A DNA stretch of 64,000 nucleotides, taken from the NCBI GenBank assembly GCA_019054805.1, contig JAHQIY010000003.1:8060001-8124000 (forward strand), read 5' to 3'. The position numbers and the translations under genes are program-made. How positions within the stretch are numbered: the stretch's first letter is position 1; the number at the start of each line of letters is the position of its first letter. Below the pieces are notes generated by a model. That model was given only the letters and a program-made list of their open reading frames with translations, ran no database searches and was not told the origin of the DNA. Below, piece by piece: positions 33,296 through 36,200 of this stretch. The stretch is from Brachionus manjavacas. Its lineage: Eukaryota > Rotifera > Eurotatoria > Ploima > Brachionidae.

Positions 33296-36200
33296 TTAGA
33301 GCCAATCTTTTGGATTTTTCAAAACTTGGGATAATTTATGCTCTTCGCTTCCAACTTCTGGTTCATGTTTGTACGACCATTTCTAAAATCACAGGTTTAA
33401 ATTATTATTTGGCTAAATTTTCTGAATTTCATTATTTACTGCTGTCAGTGGCAAAGAAACTAAGATTGATTCAATTTTTGCACCTGGAGTAAGGAGACCA
33501 AATTTTGTTCCACGATCATAGACCAAGTTAAATTCTACATATCTACCTCTTCTTAACAATTGCCATTCTCTAAAAAAAAAATTACAAATCATCTTGATAT
33601 TCTCTAGCTTAGAACCTCTCTTTGTATCCATATCCTTTAGTCATGTTCTTTTCGACTAGGGGTATATAGCTTGGTAGGACTGAATTTCCGCATGACTTGA
33701 CAAATTCAAAAGCTTTGTTCTGGTTTGGTTGGTCAAAGTCATCGAAAAATATTCCGCCAACACCACGACATTCATTTCTATGTTTAATTACAAAATATTC
33801 ATCACACCATTTTTTGAATCTTCCGTAAAAGCTTTTATCGTGTTTGTCACAACCATTTTTTAAAGTTTGATGAAAATGCTTGACATCCTTTTAGAATTTT
33901 TTATAAAATGCTTTAGAAAATAAATAAATAAATATGTTTGTACTTGTTCATCTAGATAATAGGGAGTCAAGTCAGTGCCGCCACCGAACCACCATTCGTA
34001 TTTGTTCGGGGCTACTTCAACCTCAAAATACCTATAGTTGAAATGAACTGTTGGAACATAAGGATTTCTCTTTTTTTGGTCAAATGTTTATATAAATTTA
34101 GATTTTAAAGATTATTTACCGGATGAATAACTGAACTTATACCACAAGCAAAAAATGGCAAATCTTTATCAGCTGGAATGGTAGTTTTTCCTCTTAAGAA
34201 AAATTTAATAAAATATTATGTTTGCTGTTTAAAGAAAAAAAATTTTTTTTTAAATCCAATTTTTGTTTAATTTTTATTCTTTTACTATTAAAATAATATT
34301 TTTGATAAAGTTTTTCGGTAATAAGGAAAGAAAAAAAATGTTTTATTATGAACGGACTTAAAAAGACTTTTACTTTGAATTCGGTATGTGAATTTAGCTG
34401 TGTGCATTTGAATGTTTATTATATAAATAATTTTCAAATAATGTTTTTGTTTTCTTTTTTTTTAAAAAAATTTTCTTTTTTTCACCAAGATTATACAATT
34501 TTTTGGAACAAAATTCACTTCTTATCCAGGAGCAATCTGGATTTATGAAACACCGGCGAACATCAGATAATCTTTTCTTTTTAATTCAAAAAATGATTTT
34601 CAGCAAAAAGGGGTAACATAGAAAATATGATAAATAAATACACCAACGAACTAGAACAATGGCTTATTAAGTGGAAAATGAAGATATCAATTGAAAAGTC
34701 GTGTTCAGTAGTCGGGTCTCCCACGTTATGTGACCTATAGGTCACGAAAAATGTGACCAATTCAATATCGCTCATTTGGTGACCAACAGTGGTCATTTAT
34801 TTGTGACCTGTGCAATAGGTGACCAATTTATGGTCACATAAAATAGGACTTGGTCACTAAATGATTACAACGGTCACCTAATGAAGAACAACGGTCACCT
34901 AATGAAGAACAACGGTCACCTAATGAAGAACAATGGTCACCTAATGAAGAACAATGGTCACCTAATGAAGGACAACGGTCACCTAAAAAATAACTAATGA
35001 ATTACATTTTATAAATCAGACAATTAATTTTACATGTTTATCAAATAAAGATTATAATTTTTTGAAATTTTGAAAAAAACTGTTTAATGAAATTGCAATT
35101 TTGAAAAAAGATGTTTAATTCTAGTACTACTACTAAGACCATTCCACTAGATGTTGGTATTGATGGCACAGATGATGAGTCTGAATTAGATGTTATTGAC
35201 AAAATGGACAATTTAAATATTGCTACTGCTAGCGCTAAAAACAAGTCACAAATTTATGAAAAATTGGCTAACGAAATACCTGAATGTTCAAAAGAAACTC
35301 AGGATGTAATCAAGAAGAAATTAAGCGGCAAAAAGAATCCTATTTTATGTGAATTATGTGGAGAATATATGGACGGTGAGGCAGGAATAAAGATACACAA
35401 AAGTAGAAAACATAAAAATTAAGATATTTATTACTTTAGATTTTTGAACTTAAAACTTAAAAATATTGAAAAAAATTTAGACGGTTAAATAATAGTAAAA
35501 ATTGAAACAATAAAAATTAATAAACATTTTCTAAATTTTCTGGTCCCTTTAAAAATTAAGTGGTCACATAAATAATTTTATTGGTCACATAAATAATATT
35601 ATTGGTCACATAAATAATTTTATTGGTCACATAATGATGTACGTGGTCACATAATGAGTTAATTGGTCACATAATTAACCTCTTGGTCACTTATTGAATC
35701 AACTTAAATTATTTGTTAAAATATTGGTCACCTATTGCACAGGTCACAAATAAATGACCACTGTTGGTCACCAAATGAGCGATATTGAATTGGTCACATT
35801 TTTCGTGACCTATAGGTCACATAACGTGGGAGACCCCAGTAGTCTTTTCTAAGTACAAAAAAAAGAGTGGTATTATTAATTTTTCTTTTTTGAAATAACT
35901 TTGGTAAAAACTTTTTTCTGAATAATGTTAAGAAATAATTCTGAAAAAAGAAATTAAATTGATTTTTTCTTGATTGATTTTAGATAATCCTGAAGAAGGC
36001 AAATGCCGAAACGCGTCGACATATTATAAAATTTTTTTTTTTTTTTTTTTTAATCGATTTATTTAATAATTTCGATCTTTCAATAAACAAATTTTCAATC
36101 GTTTTATCTTGTTTAATTTACTTAAAAATTTATGGAAATTAAATAGAGACCCAAAAACAAATAAAGTTTCTAGGTATTTAATTTGATTCTAAATTAAATT

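Follow-up and report, generated by a model that had tools for sequence, protein, structure and literature searches.

What kind of transposon occupies positions 34714–35836 of this AT-rich eukaryotic DNA, and why would an element of 1123 bp keep an apparently intact gene for a zinc-finger protein and no gene for a transposase? We analysed the element within its window, that is, the whole 64,000-nucleotide stretch of DNA, and compared it with described DNA transposons. The reading we prefer, and to which we would give about an even chance, is a young Mutator-like (MULE-type) element that is non-autonomous, has repetitive, foldback-like ends, was moved in trans and keeps an accessory zinc-finger gene.

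Ends and insertion site of the element

The element is bounded by terminal inverted repeats (TIRs) that match perfectly for 114 bp and first differ at base 115, and is flanked by an 8-bp target duplication that is identical on both sides; both features had been described in an earlier note on this DNA and were reproduced here. The boundaries are as follows.

34706–34713, no strand: left target site duplication, CAGTAGTC, identical to 35837–35844
34714–34827, plus strand: left TIR, 114 bp, perfect against the reverse complement of 35723–35836
35723–35836, minus strand: right TIR, 114 bp
35837–35844, no strand: right target site duplication, CAGTAGTC, identical to 34706–34713
17133–18120, plus strand: second copy of the flanking repeat with an unoccupied CAGTAGTC site, by alignment to the joined flanks

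The TIR starts with GGGTCTCCC, a short imperfect palindrome, and the left TIR also includes the palindrome GTGACCTATAGGTCAC; the ends of the element read GGG...CCC, with the tip sequence GGGTCTCC. The identity of the two TIRs indicates either a young insertion or gene conversion between the ends. An inverted-arm scan of the whole window, seeded with exact 11-mers and allowing arms within 6 kb of each other at a mismatch of at most 20%, returned this element as its sole result; arms were accepted at 20 bp or more with a 7–10-bp duplication, or at 40 bp or more with a duplication of at least 3 bp. Imperfect inverted repeats are also present at 23003–23105 and 23694–23804 (50 nt at 86%, 24 nt at 92% and 26 nt at 85%, approximately 590–750 bp apart), for which the scan reported no target duplication and which are perhaps an old TIR element.

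The repeat that flanks the element is present in the window as two near-identical copies (approximately 96%), one at 17133–18120 and the other at 34597–34713 plus 35845–36700, together with a diverged third copy at approximately 45222–45434 (60% over 35 aa). When joined, the flanks of the element agree with the first copy at 948 of 988 alignment columns, and that copy contains a single CAGTAGTC at 17242–17249. This unoccupied site belongs to a paralogous copy of the repeat and is not an allele. The earlier note had described it as an empty site preserved in a second LINE copy: the site stands, while the LINE identity was read by eye from the translation, in which the repeat resembles part of a LINE reverse-transcriptase frame, and a Pfam search of the repeat's two C-terminal frames gave no family at E ≤ 0.1.

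A TIR pattern had no match in the prokaryotic genome contigs, and the exact TIR and array patterns gave 0, 0 and 1 matches in the viral contigs. We dismissed the single match, in viral contig L001, as chance: this contig has a G+C content of 58%, carries five scattered GGTCAC/GTGACC motifs and is without the tips of the element, and the similarity ends beyond 21 bp. Misses in virus and prokaryote collections carry little weight because the element is a eukaryotic transposon.

Other features of the window were noted in passing. On the minus strand, frames within 39175–49022 match SNF2, the SHPRH helical domains and Helicase_C in Pfam, with a PHD match below the cut-off, and together look like one SHPRH-type gene in several exons, which suggests that the host is a eukaryote. 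Two further minus-strand frames, within 55501–60568, match ADP-dependent glucokinase (PF04587) and are probably exons of one gene. Rfam at its gathering threshold returned tRNA only.

Site arrays and the 103-codon reading frame

No transposase-sized frame occurs in the 1123 bp, in agreement with the earlier note. Between the TIRs lies the arrangement that the note had also described, a reading frame (ORF) set between two arrays of short, evenly spaced sites.

34832–34982, plus strand: left inner array of eight GGTCAC sites spaced 20–21 bp apart, by site count
35010–35015, plus strand: TATAAA, a possible promoter box just past the left array; found once in the element, by string match, and weak in AT-rich sequence
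35111–35422, plus strand: 103-codon ORF with an acidic N-terminal part and a likely zinc finger at its C-terminus, from the frame listing, shuffles and codon score
35348–35413, plus strand: likely C2H2 finger, residues 80–101, C-x2-C-x12-H-x4-H, from the pattern and shuffles
35509–35524, plus strand: AATAAA twice, 87 and 97 nt past the stop, as possible polyadenylation signals; string matches, weak
35562–35690, plus strand: right inner array of seven GGTCAC sites spaced 20–21 bp apart, in the same orientation as the left array

GGTCAC/GTGACC occurs 27 times (21 + 6) in the element and nine times (5 + 4) in the remaining 62.9 kb of the window; across 2000 shuffles of the element the mean was 0.3 and the maximum 3. 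Of the 24 matches in the window to the longer consensus GGTCACMTAATGA, with up to two mismatches allowed, 20 fall within the element; 1.4 would be expected across the whole window. The 15 array units were picked by GGTCAC itself, which renders the core invariant by construction; the TAA beside the core (columns 8–10), which was not a selection criterion, is kept in 14, 15 and 14 of the 15 units, respectively. The 20–21-bp spacing corresponds to approximately two helical turns, and on the right side the next site after the array lies in the TIR, a 41-bp step away. Both arrays fall outside the perfect TIRs and, unlike the TIRs, are not mirrored but run in the same direction on the two sides, which suggests either that the arrays serve for more than end synapsis or that they arose separately. 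The left array ends approximately 27 bp upstream of the TATAAA string, which would be a natural place for autoregulation. That the ORF protein binds these putative sites is a guess.

Turning to the ORF itself, its length, composition and codon usage are coding-like. On the opposite strand of the element, ATG frames reach at most 33 codons. When the whole element was shuffled 5000 times, an ORF of at least 103 codons arose 113 times; when the interior (35014–35550) was shuffled as often, it arose 12 times. The ORF has a G+C content of 31%, against 15.5% in the sequence preceding it and 16.5% in the sequence that follows, and its G+C at codon positions 1, 2 and 3 is 38, 32 and 24%, respectively. 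For a codon score, five frames of the window served as the training set, of which four have Pfam domains and the fifth (29100–29984) has no Pfam family; when the bases of the ORF were shuffled 5000 times, 2 shuffles reached its score. Scored against its own composition, the ORF came ninth among the 25 ATG ORFs with at least 80 codons, a set that includes the training frames; the three antisense frames outscored it (0.16–0.17 versus 0.04), a comparison that is confounded by the plus-strand background. We take the ORF as a real gene.

The C-terminal motif reads in full C-x2-C-x3-M-x5-I-x2-H-x4-H, the canonical C2H2 spacing, and its strict pattern appeared in 1 of 200,000 protein shuffles and a loose pattern in 30, both having been written after the protein was seen. 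Pfam gave no significant family for the whole ORF; with the finger alone it returned weak matches at E 0.086 to 0.15, comprising one C2H2, one MYST zinc finger and one HNH. A Ribosomal_S7 match to the ORF (Pfam, E = 0.016) lies below the cut-off and was rejected as chance. NCBIfam contained no match to the protein, and among PDB sequences there were six at E ≤ 10 (best 0.05), none significant and mostly zinc-finger proteins. The AlphaFold model built from the single sequence has a mean pLDDT of 60.5, and the finger is not resolved in it. Searching with tblastn revealed no paralogue of the ORF elsewhere in the 64 kb, none of the pattern matches in viral contigs (three) or prokaryotic genome contigs (131) was confirmed, and there was no match among phages. 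A C2H2 finger in this protein is likely but unproven. The intact 103-codon ORF ending in such a finger, as claimed in the earlier note, was found again and is coding-like by shuffles and codon score.

The stop codon comes two codons past the finger's last histidine, and the sequence beyond it is AT-rich and includes AATAAA; no long open continuation appears in any of the three forward frames as far as 35560. The AATAAA strings past the stop start at 35509 and 35519, with further copies at 35044, 35386 (inside the ORF) and 35749. Together with TATAAA, they would complete a one-exon unit, although such strings are common in AT-rich DNA.

Affinities with described transposons

The elements of the hAT superfamily have short TIRs and 8-bp duplications, and those of hAT and P have CA-type ends. 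The earlier note had taken the 8-bp duplication as pointing to hAT- or P-like mobilisation. The duplication is compatible with that view, but in published descriptions it is allowed by hAT, P, Zisupton and MULE and alone does not decide among them; long TIRs, G-rich tips and subterminal repeats fit animal MULEs better. Measured against the hAT rule, the duplication agrees, while the GGG ends and the 114-bp TIRs do not fit. Zisupton/KDZ, as described, likewise agrees in the 8-bp duplication. For the P superfamily, defined by an N-terminal THAP domain, Pfam shows no THAP in the ORF, and the likely finger is of the C2H2 type and C-terminal. Dada, for which duplications of 6–7 bp are described and TIRs were not found in the U6 and U1 families, was rejected, and Rehavkus, described with a 9-bp duplication and a PHD finger, was set aside.

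MULEs are recognised by a MULE DDE transposase, carried by the element or by an autonomous partner that shares its ends, by target duplications of 8–11 bp (8 bp here), by long TIRs, often above 100 bp, with a G/C tip (114 bp here), neither of the last two traits being exclusive to MULEs, and, in many animal families with long TIRs, by subterminal tandem repeats, represented here by the arrays of eight and seven units, which were chosen by GGTCAC and lie outside the perfect TIRs. The fit to MULEs rests on the combination of long TIRs, G-rich tips, the 8-bp duplication, subterminal tandem repeats and a separate C2H2 ORF. In its build the element looks most like a Mutator-like transposon, as an unusual variant and not as a new kind. 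We file it as MULE-like, which makes it neither a proven MULE nor Spectre.

Several animal families bear on this placement. In Aedes aegypti, all 14 MULE families reported have 8–9-bp duplications, TIRs exceed 100 bp in 12 of the 14, and subterminal tandem repeats are present in 10 of those 12 (PMC5225508). Muta1 has a 10-bp imperfect palindrome at its start and more than 300 putative transposase-less derivatives, the interior of which aligns with host genes in approximately 20% (PMC5225508). Muta1 and its relatives thus resemble our element in the 8–9-bp duplications, TIRs above 100 bp, palindromic tip, subterminal repeats and existence of transposase-less copies; however, the 12-bp tandem repeats of Muta1 lie inside its TIRs, whereas the inner arrays described here lie outside them and are unmirrored, and the Muta1 derivatives have mostly variable interiors, with a dedicated finger gene not mentioned in the available portion of that paper (PMC5225508). 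Tm1 of Meloidogyne, a Mutator/foldback family with 8–10-bp duplications in 45 of 53 complete copies, is likewise MULE-type, with long, repetitive TIRs and mostly non-autonomous copies, but these copies are described as having no significant coding potential (PMC3169594). In a survey of arthropod MULEs, most have conserved G/C at the first three positions of the TIR, and the TIRs are typically 20–95 bp in most species, shorter than the 114 bp of our element (PMC13359780).

The closest parallel for the ORF is Spectre, of which one complete element is reported, in Myzus persicae: it carries both a C2H2 ORF and a transposase ORF, its TIRs are perfect over 74 bp, and its target duplication is 8 bp long (Dupeyron et al. 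2019, PMC6446971). The paper is inconsistent on this element, giving two ORFs and 74-bp TIRs in the text and one ORF and 76 bp in its Table 1; it names accessions MH937731 and MH937730 for the records of Spectre and Ghost. Spectre is like our element in its perfect TIRs, 8-bp duplication and, by the finger pattern, C2H2 zinc-finger ORF, the ORFs being compared by description only, and unlike it in carrying a transposase, the trait by which its clade is defined, and in having TIRs of 74 bp rather than 114 bp (PMC6446971). With a C2H2 ORF beside the transposase of Spectre, a finger ORF may belong to an ordinary MULE gene set, and the suggestion in the earlier note that the element looks undescribed is weakened by this precedent (PMC6446971). 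An animal MULE-type element encoding only a C2H2 protein was not found in the open-licence literature searched.

A possible trace of the enzyme type that moved the element lies 10 kb away in the same window. Transposase sequences were sought by a Pfam search of 15 of the 29 stop-to-stop frames of at least 95 aa, together with a motif and tblastn search, and one candidate was recovered.

24361–24696, minus strand: 112-codon frame, degenerate, with similarity to the first part of a MULE transposase domain (Pfam PF10551, E = 0.016)

A 54-aa piece of this frame gives E = 0.0056 with PF10551, both matches falling short of the curated cut-off, and it contains a motif that, by eye, reads like the start of the MULE catalytic region. 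The raw E-value of 0.016 is the same as that of the rejected Ribosomal_S7 match; we trust the remnant above the latter because the shorter piece improves to 0.0056 and because of this motif. NCBIfam gave no match to the remnant, its surroundings hold no long open continuation and no obvious matching ends, and none of its four pattern matches in viral contigs was confirmed. The remnant is not linked to the ends of the element.

Possible roles of the finger protein

If the element is a MULE derivative, the simplest account would be that a MULE transposase from elsewhere in the genome mobilises it in trans, its own transposase gene having been lost or never present while the small, one-exon zinc-finger gene was kept. 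Possibly, the finger protein acts at the left array, just upstream of the possible TATA box, and thereby limits its own transcription; acting on sites in both ends, it could recruit the transposase or compete with it in the manner of the KP protein.

The KP protein contains a THAP domain. KP, a small, non-autonomous derivative of the Drosophila P element, encodes a 207-aa repressor protein (PMC7776569). Our element is similarly small and non-autonomous, its product being a DNA-binding or repressor candidate only by analogy, and differs in that the KP protein is a shortened P transposase product, whereas here the product has a likely C-terminal C2H2 finger (PMC7776569). In Galileo, of the P superfamily, the THAP domain binds several sites in long, repetitive ends (PMC3688188). 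The likeness to our element lies in the long, internally repetitive ends with several sites (putative ones here) for a zinc-coordinating domain encoded by the transposon; the differences are the THAP domain itself and the TIR length, which is 1.2 kb in Galileo-G (PMC3688188). By analogy with these precedents, a short DNA-binding protein from a transposase-less copy could repress or recruit a transposase and control its own promoter.

Other explanations were weighed against the MULE reading. The same type of element could belong to another superfamily with 8-bp duplications (hAT, P/Galileo or Zisupton/KDZ), with the finger ORF being part of that system, which we regard as possible but on the unlikely side. 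The duplication fits all of these as described; the long, repetitive ends of Galileo with their several THAP binding sites (PMC3688188) and the encoding of repressors such as KP by small P elements (PMC7776569) favour the P/Galileo option, while the GGG...CCC ends are not of the CA type of hAT and P, and the finger is C2H2 rather than THAP. The ORF itself could be a regulator, a passenger or a relic. It would be a passenger if the element were a Pack-TIR that had captured a fragment of a host zinc-finger gene with no role in movement. Such elements number 370 across 100 animal genomes, with a proportion transcribed (PMC8277862), and approximately 20% of Muta1 derivatives have a host-gene interior (PMC5225508); we nevertheless find this origin doubtful, given that the ATG and stop of the ORF both lie inside the element, accompanied by strings that may be a promoter box and polyadenylation signals, and that tblastn found no paralogue in the 64-kb window.

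It is improbable, in our judgement, that the ORF is a functionless left-over exon of an internally deleted element, intact only by the youth of the insertion. Internal-deletion derivatives are common among DNA transposons, as reported for P elements (PMC7776569), and TIRs that are 100% identical over 114 bp may have left too little time for decay; against this, the ORF ends two codons past the last histidine of the finger and runs into AT-rich AATAAA sequence, and the forward frames to 35560 hold no long continuation. A chance ORF within a MITE-like element is an explanation to which we give very little credence: the whole-element shuffles (113 of 5000), the lack of a significant Pfam domain, the poor single-sequence AlphaFold model and the antisense frames that outscore the ORF in the confounded codon test speak for it, but the finger spacing (1 of 200,000), codon score (2 of 5000), interior ORF length (12 of 5000) and the elevated G+C of the ORF relative to its flanks argue against it.

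Returning to the preferred MULE reading, a more ambitious extension of it, which we consider unlikely, is a transposon lineage with split functions. Transposase-free, self-regulating 'controller' copies would carry a C2H2 regulator together with its two-turn-spaced sites, repress or recruit a MULE transposase in trans, and regulate their own expression through the promoter-side array. Non-autonomous DNA transposons are usually viewed as silent passengers. If the ORF is a relic or a passenger, then the element is an ordinary young MULE derivative; a transposase-less copy with an apparently intact DNA-binding gene and dense, even candidate sites would instead offer a case in which to examine self-regulation like that of KP beyond the P family, and would bear on the purpose of the extra ORFs of MULEs.
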